Translations under genes and position numbers: made by a program
The notes under the pieces: model-generated
Databases searched by the model: none
Seen by the model: the letters and a program-made list of their open reading frames with translations, nothing else
What the model was told of the DNA's origin: nothing
Assembly: GCA_003818285.1 (NCBI GenBank)
Contig: RPRB01000009.1
Span: 1-64,000 of the forward strand
Length of the DNA stretch: 64,000 bases
Source: Myxococcaceae bacterium
Lineage (GTDB): Bacteria; Myxococcota; Myxococcia; Myxococcales; Myxococcaceae
Reading direction: 5' to 3'
In this document: piece after piece, positions 1 to 7,375 of the stretch
How the letters are laid out: each line of letters begins with the position of its first letter
Numbering within the stretch: the first letter of the stretch is position 1

Positions 1-125
1 GAGACCGGCGTCCCGTCGCCCTTGGTCTCCACCGTCACGCCGCGGTGGTAGTGGCGCAGCGCCACCTCCCCCGCCACCCGGGCCACCGCCTCCGCCGCCT
101 CCATCCACGACCTTGCCTCGCTCAT
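1..125 (-). CDS. hisN: Inositol-monophosphatase-family histidinol-phosphatase (HisN-like), partial
   Basis: Only the first 41 codons are in the window; the 3' part runs off the left edge. The N-terminus reads as an alpha-helix followed by VALRHYHRGVTVETKGDGTPV, the usual opening of inositol monophosphatase family proteins, including HisN-type histidinol-phosphatases (L-histidinol phosphate to L-histidinol). Its ATG shares one base with the hisF stop, so it is translated as the last visible gene of the his operon. That context, more than the short sequence, supports HisN over another IMPase member. Confidence 0.7.
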   Translation of the reverse strand, partial: MSEARSWMEAAEAVARVAGEVALRHYHRGVTVETKGDGTPV

Positions 126-886
126 CACGCCTCACCACGCACCGGCACGCCGGCGGCGGAGAGCGCGCGCTTCAGCGCTCGCATCGTCGTCGTCCCGTCA
201 TGAAGGATTCCCGCCACCAGGGCCGCATCGGCGCCGGCGTCCTGCAGCACTGCCCGGAGATGCTCGGCCTCGCCTGCGCCGCCCGAGGCGACGACCGGGA
301 CGTGCACCGCCCGGGCGACGGCGCGCGTCAGCTCGAGGTCGTAGCCGGTCCGGGCGCCGTCGCGGTCGATGCTGGTGAGGAGGATCTCCCCCGCGCCGCG
401 CCGCTCGGCCTCGCGCGCCCACTCCACCGCGTCCAGGTCCACCGCCTGGCGGCCACCGCCCACCACCACCTGCCAGCGTCCGCCCGAGCGCCGGGCATCG
501 ATGCTCGCCACCACGCACTGGGCCCCGAAGCGCCGCGCGCACTCGGAGAACAGCTCCGGCGCCTTCACCGGCGCCGAGTTGAGGGCCACCTTGTCCGCGC
601 CGGCCCGGAGCGCCCGCTCCACGTCCTCCACGGAGCGCATCCCGCCCCCCACGGTCAGGGGGACGAAGAGCCGTTCGGCGGTTCGCCGGACCACGTCCAG
701 GAGCGGCGCGCGCTGCTCGGGCGTCGCCGAGATGTCGAGGAACGTGACCTCGTCTGCCCCGTCCCGGCCGTAGGCCTCGGCCAGCTCCACCGGGTCGCCC
801 TGGTCCCGCAGGTCGACGAACTTCGTCCCCTTCACCACCCGGCCGCCGGTCACGTCGAGGCAGGCCACGATGCGGGGCGCGAGCAT
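125..886 (-). CDS. hisF: Imidazole glycerol phosphate synthase, cyclase subunit HisF
   Basis: This 253-residue protein opens with MLAPRIVACLDVTGGRVVKG, the HisF (beta/alpha)8-barrel start containing the catalytic Asp in CLDV. The second acid lies in LLTSIDRDG. With HisH it turns PRFAR and glutamine-derived ammonia into imidazole glycerol phosphate and AICAR. The ATG shares one base with the hisB stop (TGATG), so I chose it over a start 99 bases upstream that would only add antisense-like sequence. Length matches the family. Confidence 0.97.
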   Translation of the reverse strand: MLAPRIVACLDVTGGRVVKGTKFVDLRDQGDPVELAEAYGRDGADEVTFLDISATPEQRAPLLDVVRRTAERLFVPLTVGGGMRSVEDVERALRAGADKVALNSAPVKAPELFSECARRFGAQCVVASIDARRSGGRWQVVVGGGRQAVDLDAVEWAREAERRGAGEILLTSIDRDGARTGYDLELTRAVARAVHVPVVASGGAGEAEHLRAVLQDAGADAALVAGILHDGTTTMRALKRALSAAGVPVRGEA

Positions 887-1425
887 CAGCCTTCCGTCAC
901 CTTCACCGAGCCCTTCAGGCTGAACACCGAGCCACCCTCGGCGAACGCGTCGCGGAGCGCGAGGCCCAGCGCCTTGAAAGCGCACTCGATCACGTGGTGG
1001 CGGTTGCGCCCGCGCAGCACGCGCAGGTGAACCGTGGCCCCGGCGTTCTCGGCGAAGCTCCGCATCCAGTGCTCATAGAGCGCGTTGGGGAGCCTGCCCC
1101 GGTAGTAGGCCCGGCCGCCCACGTCCACCACTGCCTGCACCAGCGCGTCGTCCATGGGGACGGTGCGCTCGCCGAAGCGGGCCGCGGTCGCCGGGATCAT
1201 CCTCCGGAAGGCCAGGCCCACCGTGATGGCGACGTCCTCCATCAGGTGGTGGGTGAGGTCGCCCCGGGCTCGCACGCCGAGGCTCAGGCCGGCATAGCGG
1301 CCGAGGGTGGCGAGCATGTGGTCGAAGAACGGCTTCCCGGTCTCGATGCGCGCCGGGTCGGTTCCCGGGCCGAGCTCCACCTCGACCCGGGACTCCTTCG
1401 TCTCTCGCACCAGCTTGACCGTCAC
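886..1425 (-). CDS. hisB: Imidazoleglycerol-phosphate dehydratase HisB (monofunctional)
   Basis: The 179-residue product has the metal-binding HisB motifs FFDHML, LTHHLMEDVAI and RNRHHVIECAFKALG. It lacks the N-terminal HAD phosphatase domain of the bifunctional E. coli enzyme, which fits a separate HisN-type phosphatase at the end of the operon. It starts at GTG inside a GTGA overlap with hisA. Its place between hisA and hisF differs from the common order, in which hisB precedes hisH. Confidence 0.97.
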   Translation of the reverse strand: MTVKLVRETKESRVEVELGPGTDPARIETGKPFFDHMLATLGRYAGLSLGVRARGDLTHHLMEDVAITVGLAFRRMIPATAARFGERTVPMDDALVQAVVDVGGRAYYRGRLPNALYEHWMRSFAENAGATVHLRVLRGRNRHHVIECAFKALGLALRDAFAEGGSVFSLKGSVKVTEG

Positions 1426-2132
1426 GGGAACTCTTTCGCTGCGGCCCGGGCGTCGATCTTCCCGGTGTACAGCGCCATCCCGAGGATGGCCGCGGCCACG
1501 CCGGCGCTGGCCAGCTTGCGAAGCTCGTCCATGGAGGCGATTCCACCCGAGGCCTGCAGCGGGTGGCTGGTCGTCTCCACCAGCTCGGACATGAGGGCGA
1601 GGTCCGTGCCGCCTTCCAGCCCCTCCACGTGCACGGCGGTGACCTGGATCGCCGCCAGCGGCAGCGGGTCCACGCCGGCGACCAGCGCCCCGACGTCCTG
1701 GGTCAGGGTCCGGGTCCAGCCACGGGTCACAACCTGCCGACCCCGCGCATCGGCGGCGAGGATCAGCTTGCCCGGAAATCTAAAAGCGACCTCCTCCAGC
1801 CAGCGAGGATCCTCGAGCGCCCGGGTGCCGACGATGACCCGGCTCGCGCCGAGGTCGAGGAGCCGCTGGATCTCCTCCTCGTCCCGCACGCCGCCGCCCA
1901 CCTCGGCCTCGAGCCCGGAGGCCTCGAGGATCTTGGCGATGACGTCGGCGTTCGAGCCCGTCCCCAGCGCGGCGTCGAGGTCGACCACGTGCAGCATCCG
2001 GAACCCCGCGGTCTTGAACCGCTTCGCCACCTCCACCGGGTCGGGGAGGCGGATCTTCTCCGCGTCGGGCGCGCCGCCCACCAGCTGCACGCTCGCACCG
2101 CCGCGCAGGTCGATCGCCGGAAAGACCCTCAT
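1422..2132 (-). CDS. hisA: ProFAR isomerase HisA
   Basis: The 236-residue beta/alpha barrel starts MRVFPAIDLRGG with the catalytic Asp in AIDL, and carries VGGGVRDEEEI and VTAVHVEGLEGG with the HisA-type phosphate-binding glycines. It converts ProFAR to PRFAR, the HisF/HisH substrate. The ATG lies in an ATGA overlap with hisH; longer in-frame starts add only low-complexity sequence. Confidence 0.95.
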   Translation of the reverse strand: MRVFPAIDLRGGASVQLVGGAPDAEKIRLPDPVEVAKRFKTAGFRMLHVVDLDAALGTGSNADVIAKILEASGLEAEVGGGVRDEEEIQRLLDLGASRVIVGTRALEDPRWLEEVAFRFPGKLILAADARGRQVVTRGWTRTLTQDVGALVAGVDPLPLAAIQVTAVHVEGLEGGTDLALMSELVETTSHPLQASGGIASMDELRKLASAGVAAAILGMALYTGKIDARAAAKEFP

Positions 2133-2722
2133 GTGCCGACCTCCTGGAGCACCGCGGCCAGGAACGCCAGACCGGGTGCCCCGCTCTTCTCCGGGTGGAA
2201 CTGCACGCCCACCATCCCCCCGGAACGAATCATCGCCGGAAACCTGACGCCAGCGTGCTCCGTCGTGGCCCGGACCACGCCTGCATTCACTGGTCGGCAC
2301 ACGAAGCTGTGCGCGTAGTAGGCCGTCTGCAGGCCCGAACGGGCGAGGAGGGGGTCCTCCCCCTCGACCCGGTTCCATCCCATGTGGGGGATCCGGGGGG
2401 CGTCCAGCCGCACCACCCCGCCCGGAATCGTGCCCAGCCCTGCCCCGGGGCCCTCGTCGCTGCCTTCCAGGAGCAGCTGCATTCCCAGGCAGATCCCGAG
2501 GCAGGGCGCCCCGCCGAGGAGCCGTTCCCGGAGGGCCTGCCGGGCCTCCGCCAGGAGGGTCGCGGCAGCCGGGTAGGCACCCACGCCGGGGAGGACGAGC
2601 AGGGGGGCATCGAGACAGGCCTCCGGGCGCGACTCGAGCCGGGGTTGCCCGCCCGCGGCGGCCAGCGCCTTGAGCAGGGAGTGGACGTTCCCCACCCGCG
2701 TGTCCAGGACCGCGACCCTCAC
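2129..2722 (-). CDS. hisH: Imidazole glycerol phosphate synthase, glutaminase subunit HisH
   Basis: This is a class I glutamine amidotransferase of 197 residues. The nucleophile elbow is PCLGICLGMQLL (Cys), and the His-Glu pair is in VGVQFHPEKSG near the C-terminus. GTG at 2722 is preferred because it forms a GTGA overlap with hisC and gives the conserved start VRVAVLDTRVGNVHSL. It supplies ammonia to HisF, encoded two genes downstream. Confidence 0.95.
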   Translation of the reverse strand: MRVAVLDTRVGNVHSLLKALAAAGGQPRLESRPEACLDAPLLVLPGVGAYPAAATLLAEARQALRERLLGGAPCLGICLGMQLLLEGSDEGPGAGLGTIPGGVVRLDAPRIPHMGWNRVEGEDPLLARSGLQTAYYAHSFVCRPVNAGVVRATTEHAGVRFPAMIRSGGMVGVQFHPEKSGAPGLAFLAAVLQEVGT

Positions 2723-3762
2723 CGGAGCACCTCCCGGAGCGCGGCCAGGAGCCGCTCCATCACGCCCCACGGCCCGACGCCGACGCGGACGGCGTCGCCG
2801 ATGCCGGGGAGCGCCCGGAGGACCCGCACCTTGATTCCCCGCCCGAGCAGGGCCCGCCCCAGGGCCGCCGAGTCGGGCACCGGGAGGCAGAGGAAGTTGG
2901 CCGAGGAGGGCAGCGCCCGGAGCCCCAGCGCCTCGAGCGCGTCACGCAGCCGTTCCCGGATCGCCACGGACTCCTCCACGTGCCGGCGCACCCAGGGGAC
3001 GTCTTCGCGGAGCGCCGCGAGGGCAGCCTTTTCCCCCAGCACGTTCAGCTTGTAGGGACCACGGACCTTCTCCAGCACCTGCACCACCTCGGGCGCGGCC
3101 AGACCGTAGCCCACCCGCAGCCCCGCCAGCCCGAAGGCCTTGGAGAGAGTGCGGGTGACCAGGAGCTGGGGCGCGCGAGGGAGGAGCGAGACGGCGGTGT
3201 GTCCGGAGAACTCGCCGTAAGCCTCGTCGACCAGCACCAGCCCCTCGGCGCGCGTGACGACGCGCTCGAGGGCCGCCGCCGACACCCCGGTCCCGGTGGG
3301 GTTGTTGGGGCTGCAGACGTAGGTGATGGCGGCGCGCTGGGCGAGCAGCGCGTCCGGGTCCACGTCCCCGTCCTTCCCGAACGGAACGGGCGCGGGCTCG
3401 AGCCCGTTCACCCGGGCGAAGCTCACCAGCATCGAGAAGCTCGGCGCCGAGTAGGCGACCTTCTCCCCCGGAGCGGCGAAGGCCCGAAGCGCGCCGTCGA
3501 TGACGTCGTCCGAGCCGCAGCCGGTGACGACCTGTGCGGCGCTCACCCCCGAGTACCGGGCGAGCGCCTCCCGGAGCTCCACCGGGTCCGAGTGCGGATA
3601 CACGCTCGGCTGCGCGGCCAGCGGCTGCTGGAGCGCGCGGGCCGCGGCGGGCGGCACGCCCCACAGGTTCACGTTGTCGCTGAGATCGACCTCCACCGGG
3701 CTCGGGTCCGGGGCGTAGAGGGGCACGGTGGCCAGCACCGGCCGGGGACGGGCCGGGCTCAT
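2719..3762 (-). CDS. hisC: Histidinol-phosphate aminotransferase HisC
   Basis: The 347-residue fold-type I PLP enzyme has the SPNNPTGT motif, VDEAYGEF with the cofactor Asp, and the Schiff-base Lys at residue 208 in TRTLSKAFG. It transaminates imidazole acetol phosphate to histidinol phosphate. The frame stays open far upstream, but that part is antisense-like sequence inside hisD; ATG at 3762, overlapping the hisD stop as ATGA, gives the family length. Confidence 0.96.
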   Translation of the reverse strand: MSPARPRPVLATVPLYAPDPSPVEVDLSDNVNLWGVPPAAARALQQPLAAQPSVYPHSDPVELREALARYSGVSAAQVVTGCGSDDVIDGALRAFAAPGEKVAYSAPSFSMLVSFARVNGLEPAPVPFGKDGDVDPDALLAQRAAITYVCSPNNPTGTGVSAAALERVVTRAEGLVLVDEAYGEFSGHTAVSLLPRAPQLLVTRTLSKAFGLAGLRVGYGLAAPEVVQVLEKVRGPYKLNVLGEKAALAALREDVPWVRRHVEESVAIRERLRDALEALGLRALPSSANFLCLPVPDSAALGRALLGRGIKVRVLRALPGIGDAVRVGVGPWGVMERLLAALREVLR

Positions 3763-5063
3763 CGCGTCCCCCAGGCGCGGGCCGCCGCCGCGTGCGCGTG
3801 CAGCCCCTCGGCGGTGGCGAAGACCTCGGTGTCGACCGCGAGAGACGCCGCCCCGGTGCGGGAGACGGTCTGAACCGTGGTCCAGCGGACGAAGTCGAGG
3901 GTGGACAGCCCGGACCAGGCCCGTGCTGCCCCCGCCGTCGGCAGGACGTGGTTGGCCCCGGTCAGGTAATCGCCGAAGGCGCCCGAGCTGGAGGTCCCGA
4001 CGAAGACGGTGCCCGCGTTGCGGATCCGCCGCGCCAGCTCGGCAGCGCCCTCGAGCGCGAGCATCAGGTGCTCGGGCGCCCACCTCTCGGCGAAGGCCAC
4101 CGCCTCGTCCACCGAGCCCGCGCCCAGCACGGCCCCGCGGCTGGCGAGGGCTGGCCCGATGACGTCCGCCCGCTCCGCGGTGGGCGCGAGCGTCGCCACC
4201 CGGTCGAGGAGCCGCGCTGCGGTCCGGTCGTCGAGCGCCACCGCGACCACTGCCGCCTCCGGGTCGTGCTCGGCCTGCGCGAGGAGCTCGCGGGCCACCG
4301 CCTCGACATCCGAGGTCGCATCGAGCAGCACCAGCAGCTCGGAGGGGCCGGCCGGTGAGTCGATGGGGACGCGCGAGGCTATCTGGCATTTCGCCTCGGC
4401 GACCCAGGCGTTCCCCGGGCCGACGATGCGGTCCACCCCCGGGACGGACTCGGTCCCGTAAGCGAGCGCGGCGATCGCTCCGGCGCCCCCGAGGGCGAAG
4501 ACCCGGTCCACCTCGGCCACGGCGGCGGCAGCGAGCACGGCGGCCGAGGGCAATCCGCCGGGCCCCGGCGGAGAGCAGAGCACGATCTCGCGGACCCCGG
4601 CGATGCGCGCCGGCACCGCGCCCATCAGCACGCTGCTCGGGTACGCGGCCCGGCCGCCCGGGGCGTAGACGCCGACGCGAGCGAGCGGGTCCGGCCGGCG
4701 CTCGACGACGATCCCCGGTTCCACCTCCACCCGGCTCGGCTGGGGGCGGAGTGCGCCGTGGACCCGGGCGACGTTCCGGGCCGAGCGCTCCATCGCCCGG
4801 CGAAGCGCCGGAGGCTGCCGGTCGAGGGCTGCCCGGACCACCTCGCGCGGCACCTCCAGCGACTCGAGCGTGACCCGGTCGAATCGGCGCGCGAGCTCGC
4901 GCAGCGCCGCGTCTCCGCGCGACCGGACGTCCGCGATGAGCGAGGCGACCTGCGCACGGAGGTCCCGCTCGCCGGAGTCGGCCTGCCCCCGCGAGAGGAG
5001 AATCCGGAGGTCGTCGGGCCCGAGCCCGGAGAGGCGTCCTGTCCACCGCACCGCCGCGCTCAC
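3759..5063 (-). CDS. hisD: Histidinol dehydrogenase HisD
   Basis: The 434-residue zinc enzyme oxidises histidinol to histidine in two NAD-dependent steps. Visible motifs include GVYAPGGRAAYPSS, GPGNAWVAEAK, IDSPAGPSEL and the catalytic WAPEHLML with its Glu-His pair. The chosen GTG forms a GTGA overlap with hisG; the open frame upstream is antisense-like sequence in hisG. Confidence 0.96.
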   Translation of the reverse strand: MSAAVRWTGRLSGLGPDDLRILLSRGQADSGERDLRAQVASLIADVRSRGDAALRELARRFDRVTLESLEVPREVVRAALDRQPPALRRAMERSARNVARVHGALRPQPSRVEVEPGIVVERRPDPLARVGVYAPGGRAAYPSSVLMGAVPARIAGVREIVLCSPPGPGGLPSAAVLAAAAVAEVDRVFALGGAGAIAALAYGTESVPGVDRIVGPGNAWVAEAKCQIASRVPIDSPAGPSELLVLLDATSDVEAVARELLAQAEHDPEAAVVAVALDDRTAARLLDRVATLAPTAERADVIGPALASRGAVLGAGSVDEAVAFAERWAPEHLMLALEGAAELARRIRNAGTVFVGTSSSGAFGDYLTGANHVLPTAGAARAWSGLSTLDFVRWTTVQTVSRTGAASLAVDTEVFATAEGLHAHAAAARAWGTR

Positions 5064-5917
5064 GGCAGCAGCCTCTCGATGCGCGTGACCAGGATGCCCT
5101 CGCCGCCCAGCGACTTGAGCGCGGCCACGGTCCGGTAGAGCGAGGACTCGGAGACGACCGCGTGCACCGCGACCAGCGGGCCGGCGCCGTACAGCTCGAT
5201 GACGGTGGGCCCGCTCAGCCCGGGGAGCACCTCGCGCACCGCCTCGAGGTTTGCCCGCGGGACGTTGGCCATCAGGTAGCGCTTGCCGCGGGCGCGGATC
5301 ACCGAGCCGAGCGCGTCCTGGAGCTCGCCCAGCGCCCGCGCGCGGTCGGGCGCGAGACCGGGCCGGGCGATGAGCCGCGCGGTCGACTCGAGCACGGTGC
5401 AAACCTCCCGGAGGCCATTCGTCCGGAGGGTGCTCCCGGTGCTGGTGAGGTCCACCACCACGTCGGCGATGCCCAGGTGGGGCGCGACCTCGGCCGCGCC
5501 GGAGACCGGCACCACCTCCACCGCGAGCCCCTTCTCGGCGAAGAACGACCGGGCGAGACGGGGAAAGACGGTGGCGGCGCGAGTGCCCGAGGGCAGCTGC
5601 TCCGGCCGGTCGATGCCCGAGTCCTCTCGCGCGGCGAGCACCAGCCGGCAGCGGCCGAACTCGAGGTCGAGCCGGACGTCCACCGGCCGCCCGGCCTCGC
5701 AGACCAGGTCCCAGCCGGTGACGCCCGCGTCGGCCACGCCGTCGGACACCAGCTCGGGGATGTCCTGGCTGCGGACGAAGATGGCCTCGAACTCGCCGCC
5801 CAGCGAGGCGGTGAGGGCGCGTTCGCCATTGGCACGGATCTCCAGGCCGGCGTCGGAGAAGACGCCCCTGACGTCCTCGGCCAGCCTGCCTTTGTTCGGG
5901 AGTGCGATGCGCAACAT
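5060..5917 (-). CDS. hisG: ATP phosphoribosyltransferase HisG, long form
   Basis: This is the first structural gene of the operon and the committed, usually feedback-regulated step (ATP + PRPP). At 285 residues it is the long form: residues 1-~210 form the catalytic part (MLRIALPNKGRLAED, ELVSDGVADAGVTG, DLTSTGSTLRTNGL) and the last ~75 the ACT-like histidine-binding domain. Being long-form, it should not need HisZ. A ribosome-binding site AAAGAGG lies about 6 bases before the ATG, just after the attenuator hairpin. Confidence 0.96.
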   Translation of the reverse strand: MLRIALPNKGRLAEDVRGVFSDAGLEIRANGERALTASLGGEFEAIFVRSQDIPELVSDGVADAGVTGWDLVCEAGRPVDVRLDLEFGRCRLVLAAREDSGIDRPEQLPSGTRAATVFPRLARSFFAEKGLAVEVVPVSGAAEVAPHLGIADVVVDLTSTGSTLRTNGLREVCTVLESTARLIARPGLAPDRARALGELQDALGSVIRARGKRYLMANVPRANLEAVREVLPGLSGPTVIELYGAGPLVAVHAVVSESSLYRTVAALKSLGGEGILVTRIERLLP

Positions 5918-5940
5918 GAAGGACCTCTTTCTGGGCTCGG

Positions 5941-5995
5941 AAACGAAGAAGGGCCCTCGAGGCGCGCCGCACGGATGCGGCGCCCTGGAGGGCCC
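5941..5995 (-). terminator. his operon attenuator hairpin
   Basis: Read on the minus strand, GGGCCCTC (5995-5988) pairs perfectly with GAGGGCCC (5958-5951). Inside, GCGCCGC pairs with GCGGCGC around a six-base loop, with a small mismatch and bulge between the two stems. The hairpin is followed by TTCTTCGTTT (5950-5941). It lies 24 bases upstream of the hisG start and downstream of a His-rich leader ORF, the arrangement of an intrinsic terminator used for attenuation. Further GGGCCC copies in the leader (for example at 6077-6072) could form a competing antiterminator. Confidence 0.85.
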
Positions 5996-6032
5996 GGTCG
6001 GGACATCTCGGTGTCAGCGGGGGCGGGTCAGC

Positions 6033-6116
6033 TCAGCGAGACACACCGCCATGCGCGTGCACCGGCCCGACGGGCCCGTGCCGATGGTGTGCATGGTGAT
6101 GGTGCAGGACGACCAC
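6033..6116 (-). CDS. hisL: his operon leader peptide (9 His in 27 residues)
   Basis: A GTG-initiated ORF of 27 codons encodes VVVLHHHHAHHRHG and then two more His residues, ending at TGA 6035-6033. Nine His codons, seven of them within nine positions, directly before a terminator hairpin and hisG mark a ribosome-stalling leader. No Shine-Dalgarno sequence precedes the GTG and no in-frame ATG exists upstream. A weak -35/-10 pair (TTGCGC at 6153-6148, TACTTC at 6129-6124) would start transcription at or next to the GTG, so leaderless translation is possible. The start codon is the least certain part. Confidence 0.8.
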   Translation of the reverse strand: MVVLHHHHAHHRHGPVGPVHAHGGVSR

Positions 6117-6232
6117 GGAGGAAGAAGTAGTCGAGTCGGGGGGCGCCGCGCAAGCCAGCCCGCGGGTCTCGCTCCGGATGCAGGGCGAAGCCGCCGCGGG
6201 ACGGGGCTCCTCCGGAGGGCAAGCGCCCGGAA

Positions 6233-7375
6233 TCAGGCCTGCGCGAGGGCCTGGGCGAGGTCGTCGATGAGGTCCTGGACGTCCTCGATGCCCACCGAGA
6301 GCCGGATGAACCCGTCGGAGATGCCGAGCGCGGCCCGCGTCTCCGGCGGCACGGAGGCGTGGGTCATGATCGCCGGGTGCTCGATGAGGCTCTCCACGCC
6401 ACCGAGCGACTCGGCGCAGGCGAACACCTTCACCGCCTTCAGGAACTTCCGCGCGGCGGGGAGACCGCCCTGGATCTCGAAGGTGAGCATGCCGCCGAAG
6501 CCCTTCATCTGCTTCCGGGCGAGCGCGTGCTGCGGATGGCTGGCCAGGCCCGGGTAGACCACGTGGCCGGCCTTCGCGTGCCCGGAGAGGAACTCGGCGA
6601 CCTTCATCGCGTTCTGCTCGTGCCGCGCCATGCGCACGCCGAGCGTCTTCACCCCGCGGAGCACGAGGAAGCTGTCCATCGCGCTCGGGACCCCGCCCAC
6701 CGCGTTCTGCAGGAAGTAGATGCGCTGGGCGAGCTCCTCGTTGCTGGTGGCGACGAAGCCGCCCACGGTATCGCTGTGGCCGTTGATGTACTTCGTCGTC
6801 GAGTGCAGCACGACGTCGATGCCGTGCTCGAGTGGCCGCTGGAAGTAGGGAGAGAGGAAGGTGTTGTCGCAGACCGAGAGGATCTTCCGGGCGCGGCAGA
6901 TCTCCCCCACCCGCGTCAGGTCCACCAGCTTGAGCGTCGGATTGGTGGGAGTTTCGACCCAGACCATCCGAGTCCTGGGGGTGAGCGTGGCCTCGAGCGT
7001 GCCCGGCTTCGAGAGGTCGACGAAGCTGAAGGAGAGACCGAGGCGCTTGAACACCTTGTCGAACAGCCGGAACGTGCCGCCGTAGACGTCGTCCGAGCAG
7101 ATGACGTGGTCGCCGCTGTCGAGGAGGTGGATGAGGGTGTCGGTGGCCGCACAGCCCGAGGCGAACGCCGCTCCGAACCGTGCACCTTCCAACGCGGCGA
7201 GGCAGCCCTCGAGTGCGGTGCGGGTGGGATTCTTGGTCCGGCTGTACTCGTATCCCTTGTGCTCGCCGGGGCCGGCCTGGACGTAGGTCGACGTGAGGTA
7301 GACCGGCGTCATGATCGCGCCGGTGGTGGGGTCCGGCTCCTGGCCGGCGTGGATGGCGAGGGTATCGAAGCGCAT
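6233..7375 (-). CDS. Cystathionine gamma-synthase/lyase family PLP enzyme
   Basis: The 380-residue protein belongs to the Cys/Met metabolism PLP family. It has YEYSRTKNPTR, FASGCAATDT for cofactor phosphate, SVCDNTFLSPYFQRPLEHG, and the Schiff-base Lys at residue 195 in HSTTKYINGHSD. The sequence resembles both cystathionine gamma-synthase (metB) and gamma-lyase (mccB), which I cannot separate by eye. It lies upstream of the his leader on the same strand and is divergent from the pyrophosphatase with only 18 bp between starts, so its promoter must overlap that gene. Confidence 0.93.
   Translation of the reverse strand: MRFDTLAIHAGQEPDPTTGAIMTPVYLTSTYVQAGPGEHKGYEYSRTKNPTRTALEGCLAALEGARFGAAFASGCAATDTLIHLLDSGDHVICSDDVYGGTFRLFDKVFKRLGLSFSFVDLSKPGTLEATLTPRTRMVWVETPTNPTLKLVDLTRVGEICRARKILSVCDNTFLSPYFQRPLEHGIDVVLHSTTKYINGHSDTVGGFVATSNEELAQRIYFLQNAVGGVPSAMDSFLVLRGVKTLGVRMARHEQNAMKVAEFLSGHAKAGHVVYPGLASHPQHALARKQMKGFGGMLTFEIQGGLPAARKFLKAVKVFACAESLGGVESLIEHPAIMTHASVPPETRAALGISDGFIRLSVGIEDVQDLIDDLAQALAQA

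Follow-up and report, generated by a model that had tools for sequence, protein, structure and literature searches.

An apparently leaderless His-codon attenuator predicted upstream of hisG in a Myxococcaceae genome and its relatives

The window, i.e. the whole 64,000-nucleotide stretch of contig RPRB01000009.1 analysed here, carries on its minus strand a his operon of a Myxococcaceae bacterium. The region 5' of hisG contains a short His-rich ORF, followed by a hairpin. Elements are listed below in the 5' to 3' order of the minus strand.

6148..6153, minus strand: -35-like element TTGCGC, TTGACG/C in most relatives, weak in the window
6124..6129, minus strand: -10-like element TACTTC; 18 nt separate it from the -35-like element and 7 nt from the GTG, and both its placement and its spacing match those of relatives
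6033..6116, minus strand: His leader ORF (hisL-like), GTG start at 6116, stop codon TGA at 6035-6033, without a Shine-Dalgarno sequence
6044..6105, minus strand: putative 1:2 (pause) hairpin, formed between the His codons and the 3' portion of the same ORF, with GGCCC-GGGCC at its apex
6078..6104, minus strand: putative regulatory codons HHHHAHHRH, 7 His per 9 codons, from translation and a density scan
6066..6077, minus strand: putative antiterminator strand (region 2) GGGCCCGTCGGG, from complementarity and folding
5990..6002, minus strand: region 3 CCCGACCGGGCCC, predicted partner of 6066-6077 (antiterminator) or, by its own 3' half, of the terminator 3' arm
5951..5995, minus strand: intrinsic terminator hairpin (regions 3:4), dG -39.7 kcal/mol, with covariation in relatives
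5941..5950, minus strand: T-rich tract TTCTTCGTTT, read directly, TTTTTTCGTTT in most relatives
5924..5929, minus strand: Shine-Dalgarno sequence AAGAGG of hisG, read directly
5060..5917, minus strand: hisG, ATG at 5917 (TIGR00070, TIGR03455), long form with the C-terminal regulatory domain present
125..5063, minus strand: hisD, hisC, hisH, hisA, hisB and hisF, the remaining operon genes, 3' of hisG

A first-pass annotation had described a 27-codon minus-strand ORF with 9 His codons, 7 of them within 9 codons. Direct reading and translation bear this out (MVVLHHHHAHHRHGPVGPVHAHGGVSR, 6116-6033, 5' of hisG). In a six-frame scan of the 64-kb window, no more than 4 His per 9 codons were found anywhere outside the leader cluster, and 7 His in 9 codons did not arise once when the mononucleotides of the 315-nt intergenic region were shuffled 20,000 times. 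The upstream neighbour is a cystathionine gamma-synthase-like (metB-like) gene on the same strand, which ends at 6233, about 117 nt from the leader. The GC-rich hairpin, the TTCTTCGTTT tract and the hisG ribosome-binding site, reported to follow the ORF in this order, were all located (5995-5951, 5950-5941 and 5929-5924, respectively).

HisG searches provided same-family relatives and 80 named loci, 2 of which have too little upstream sequence. Besides the window, the remaining 78 all carry a His-rich leader 5' of hisG, at a distance of 135–239 nt; conservation of the His codons, on which the annotation had staked its reading, is thus found throughout. Hosts include Myxococcus xanthus, Corallococcus, Pyxidicoccus, Archangium, Hyalangium and Citreicoccus among Myxococcaceae and Archangiaceae and, beyond Myxococcota, many Gemmatimonadota and also Ca. 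Eisenbacteria. The genome had been called myxobacterium-like from its letters, which agrees both with its nearest named relatives, Myxococcaceae MAGs, and with the presence of the same device in Myxococcus, Corallococcus and Archangium. No His leader was found at distant short-form HisG loci in other families of the order, nor at the divergent HisG of genome G019.

Leaders measure 21–32 codons (median 28) and contain 5–9 His (median 7), a count that omits one ORF broken by N in its contig; two weak leaders (L090, L099) feature only 4 His in ten codons. His is encoded by 317 CAT and 226 CAC codons across leaders, and both CAT and CAC were found at conserved His positions in a set of 25 Myxococcaceae/Archangiaceae sequences. 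Such interchange fits selection on the amino acid. HisG searches returned no match in ten same-family genomes (G002, G003, G005, G006, G009, G010, G012, G016, G018, G022), nine of which are listed at a completeness of at least 90%. These organisms are possibly histidine auxotrophs, or a divergent enzyme may have been missed.

Sequences preceding the leaders follow a common pattern: TTGAC, 17–18 nt, TAnnnT, 5–11 nt, and then ATG (45 leaders) or GTG (34 leaders). The median best-promoter score is 12.1, as opposed to 4.8 for shuffles, and 94% of scores exceed the shuffled 95th percentile. The spacer between the scored promoter elements is 16–18 nt, and the distance from the -10 element to the ATG/GTG is 5–11 nt in 79/79 sequences, the rule used to assign starts (first in-frame start past the -10) biasing this distance downwards; in most sequences a single in-frame ATG/GTG occurs between the -10 element and the His run. 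Transcription usually starts 7–9 bp past the -10 hexamer, and the 5' UTR would therefore measure 0–4 nt. The promoter score in the window is 4.8, equal to the shuffle median, and the nearest relatives of the window also have weak elements (TTGCAC/TAGCTC, TTGCGT/TACCCA). As the window promoter is weak, the case for a leaderless RNA in the window genome leans on homology. The annotation had regarded a transcript start downstream of 6078 as fatal to its reading; promoter-like elements in relatives sit upstream of the leader.

Shine-Dalgarno tetramers were found before 4/79 leaders versus 21/79 hisG genes, and both shuffles (p 0.004) and hisG starts show stronger anti-Shine-Dalgarno pairing than the region 5' of the leader, in keeping with the earlier remark that the leader lacks such a sequence. 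The suspicion, voiced at the same time, of leaderless translation receives strong support from the comparative evidence, that is the promoter-start geometry and the scarcity of Shine-Dalgarno sequences. A promoter 5–11 nt before the start in essentially every homologue, and no Shine-Dalgarno sequence, make it almost certain, judging from these sequence comparisons, that the RNA on which the leader is translated is leaderless.

A hairpin and a T-rich tract were assigned between the leader and hisG in 79/79 sequences, mostly with a conserved GGCCCGTCC/GGACGGGCC stem, the assignment being doubtful in a few relatives (e.g. L059, L090, L092). Over 45 aligned sequences, 98% of the cells of the terminator stem are paired, and double changes occur at 4 of 9 stem pairs, in 12 cells; none of 500 shuffles matched this. 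The GGCCCGTCC/GGACGGGCC core is near-invariant across phyla (L023-L102, 5' of hisG), beyond the needs of a terminator alone, plausibly because the same bases also have to match leader codons.

Codons past the His run, usually HGPTGRG, correspond to GGCCC-GACGGGYC, the second half of which is complementary to the terminator 5' arm. In the window, GGGCCCGTCGGG (6077-6066) and CCCGACCGGGCCC (6002-5990) make up a 12-bp complementarity with a one-base bulge; GGGCCC repeats, noticed earlier as allowing competing pairings, belong to it. Compared with relatives, both the leader segment and its terminator-side partner are altered in the window, and are still complementary. Pairing between the leader and the terminator 5' arm is kept in 84% of cells in 45 sequences, and in 94% in the 25-sequence set, versus 15–52% when the segments are slid. 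The 7-bp outer stem of the 1:2 hairpin is 99% paired but invariant in the 25 Myxococcaceae/Archangiaceae sequences. Since antiterminator and 1:2 pairings are nearly invariant, covariation neither supports nor refutes them. In these GC-rich RNAs, complementarity within single sequences exceeds that of dinucleotide shuffles by a median z of -1.8 (window z -1.4, p 0.11); the excess being modest, weight is placed on conserved position and pairing. A complementarity test limited to the 5' arm of the hairpin itself gave no information on the window (z -0.1), because the window antiterminator reaches 5' of the hairpin.

The effect of ribosome position was simulated by masking ribosome-covered nucleotides in folded transcripts that end before the terminator 3' arm. 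In 53/75 sequences upstream pairing of the 5' arm is stronger when the ribosome occupies a His codon than when it occupies the stop codon (margin 0.2); the reverse was seen in 0/75. In the window, the upstream-pairing probability of the core arm is 0.75–0.77 for a ribosome on any of the first four His codons, versus about 0.01 for one on the stop codon. Equilibrium folding of the complete transcript always prefers the terminator, so that the decision has to be kinetic, as in the classical model. Mutual exclusion of terminator and antiterminator, for which the annotation had proposed folding as a check, is predicted by computation, from conserved complementarity and from dependence on ribosome position; covariation does not add to it, and the excess over shuffles is modest.

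The whole is best read as ribosome-mediated transcription attenuation of the his operon by way of a leaderless leader peptide, a reading to which we assign a probability of roughly 0.87. The His-codon ORF, the terminator and their conservation support the classical his attenuator proposed initially. As deduced from the sequence, the element should be a sensor switching the his genes on when histidine runs short. Transcription would start at the GTG at 6116, or a few nt upstream, and a ribosome would load on the bare 5' end unaided by a Shine-Dalgarno sequence. When His-tRNA is scarce, the ribosome would stall in the HHHHAHHRH codons and open the 1:2 hairpin; the segment 6077-6066, once freed, would pair with 6002-5990, the terminator would be blocked, and RNA polymerase would read through into hisGDCHABF. 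With ample His-tRNA, the ribosome would reach the stop codon and cover region 2, and the 5995-5951 terminator would form. The same terminator would form if no ribosome had loaded, region 2 being locked in the 1:2 hairpin.

The same attenuator might be served by a leader translated conventionally from a longer 5' UTR, on RNA started further upstream or read through from the metB-like gene, the leaderless geometry being incidental in the window genome. A transcript of this type would suit the weak -35/-10 match in the window and a same-strand gene whose end lies only some 117 nt upstream of the leader. However, every homologue shows this geometry, in differing upstream contexts and with strong TTGAC/TAnnnT elements among them, and no Shine-Dalgarno sequence precedes the leader start, such sequences being rarer than in shuffles; a longer 5' UTR is accordingly judged improbable. 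Much less likely still is that the product of the ORF is a small His-rich protein with a function of its own, such as metal binding, and that the hairpin is merely the terminator of its gene. His residues (9/27) kept across phyla would be expected of such a protein, but the ORF varies in length and ends, always lies directly 5' of hisG with the terminator in between, and its conserved non-His residues, HGPTGRG, are encoded by the very stretch of RNA that is complementary to the terminator arm.

A structured RNA leader with an intrinsic terminator 5' of an amino-acid operon also recalls T-boxes and riboswitches, in which tRNA or a ligand is bound and translation of a leader peptide plays no part. 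Yet the conserved element is a run of His at the codon level, with synonymous changes, and Rfam searches of the window and six relatives at permissive thresholds gave no match, which leaves this the least probable reading of all. The T-box model RF00230 did not match the window region or the six relatives, and the His_leader model RF00514 had no match up to E = 5 in window positions 5700-6400, nor up to E = 1 in the six relatives. The Rfam matches returned for the window region and the six relatives were chance only, far below gathering scores. Rfam is without a family for this leader.

Neither His attenuators nor leaderless leader peptides are new in themselves, and the attenuator proposed here has the sequence-level features of a classical his attenuator and is predicted to work like one. 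In hisL of E. coli and Salmonella, as described in PMC3896937 and PMC9413887, a His-codon leader peptide and alternative antiterminator and terminator structures precede the his operon, and the same layout is seen here. Unlike hisL (RF00514), the window leader is apparently leaderless, lacks a Shine-Dalgarno sequence and has an interrupted His run (HHHHAHHRH), and its antiterminator strand would be part of the ORF itself (HGPxG codons). Streptomyces lividans has leader peptides that are transcribed leaderless (LeuL, TrpL, IlvL, MetL, ThrL; PMC8079986), and an intrinsic terminator accompanies several of them; these are actinobacterial, none is a his leader, and their transcript starts were mapped, whereas the starts considered here are predicted. 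In Sinorhizobium meliloti, the 5' end of the trpL (peTrpL) attenuator RNA coincides with the ATG of the leader ORF (PMC7298713), in an alphaproteobacterial system with an ATG start that responds to Trp rather than His. In Firmicutes, His-rich leader peptides with terminator/antiterminator structures have been predicted before his genes in lineages without other control, according to the accessible part of PMC9413887; lineages and sequences differ from those described here, and a leaderless start goes unmentioned in that part.

In 2010 leader-peptide systems were stated to have been shown in Proteobacteria and Actinobacteria only (PMC2965389). No report of his attenuators or leaderless leaders in Myxococcota or Gemmatimonadota was found in the searchable open literature, one relevant 2010 survey lying outside its coverage. 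In the same literature no report combines a His attenuator with a leaderless leader; an earlier prediction in the lineage may exist.

In the HisG tree, the window groups with its two nearest MAGs (100/99), separately from other Myxococcaceae, and this clade is placed with weak support (81/78) among Gemmatimonadota. It is plausible from these sequences that hisG moved between phyla together with its attenuator. Somewhat favoured is a reading in which the leader peptide of this his attenuator is leaderless in every case, and the attenuator stayed with its hisG lineage in Myxococcota, Gemmatimonadota and Ca. Eisenbacteria and was probably carried from phylum to phylum along with hisG. Two records, Comamonas sp. 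KCTC 72670 (L036) and Planctomycetota SJ778 (L098), have a myxobacterial hisG and leader, and fall within myxobacterial clades; they are probably misnamed records or contaminated contigs.

The same genome (G000:C46) features, 5' of ilvB, a leader ORF rich in branched-chain residues (L141; also L140 and L142) that ends in ...LVVVGLLLGLVLLPLIAAGCGPPT* and is followed by a GCCCCCGCACC/GGTGCGGGGGC terminator with a T tract. This is a probable second attenuator. The ilvB leader of L142 (TTGACA-18-TACCGT-6-ATG) also looks leaderless. No convincing Trp-rich leader was found before trpE in ten same-family genomes examined. No Leu-rich leader lies directly before leuA, which sits after ilvBN, the branched-chain leader being found before ilvB instead.

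The data would extend His-codon attenuation to Myxococcota and Gemmatimonadota, for which the searchable open literature holds no description, and may seed a new Rfam family. They also provide an apparently leaderless small ORF with phylogenetic support in myxobacteria, organisms for which little transcript-start data has been published in the literature searched. The promoter-at-start-codon arrangement is kept in essentially every one of the 79 leaders, and raises the question of how coupling to RNA polymerase is achieved in an attenuator whose ribosome would have to load on a bare 5' end. If the proposed reading is true, loading at the emerging 5' end replaces loading driven by a Shine-Dalgarno sequence, and leaderless initiation would be built into the timing of the switch.
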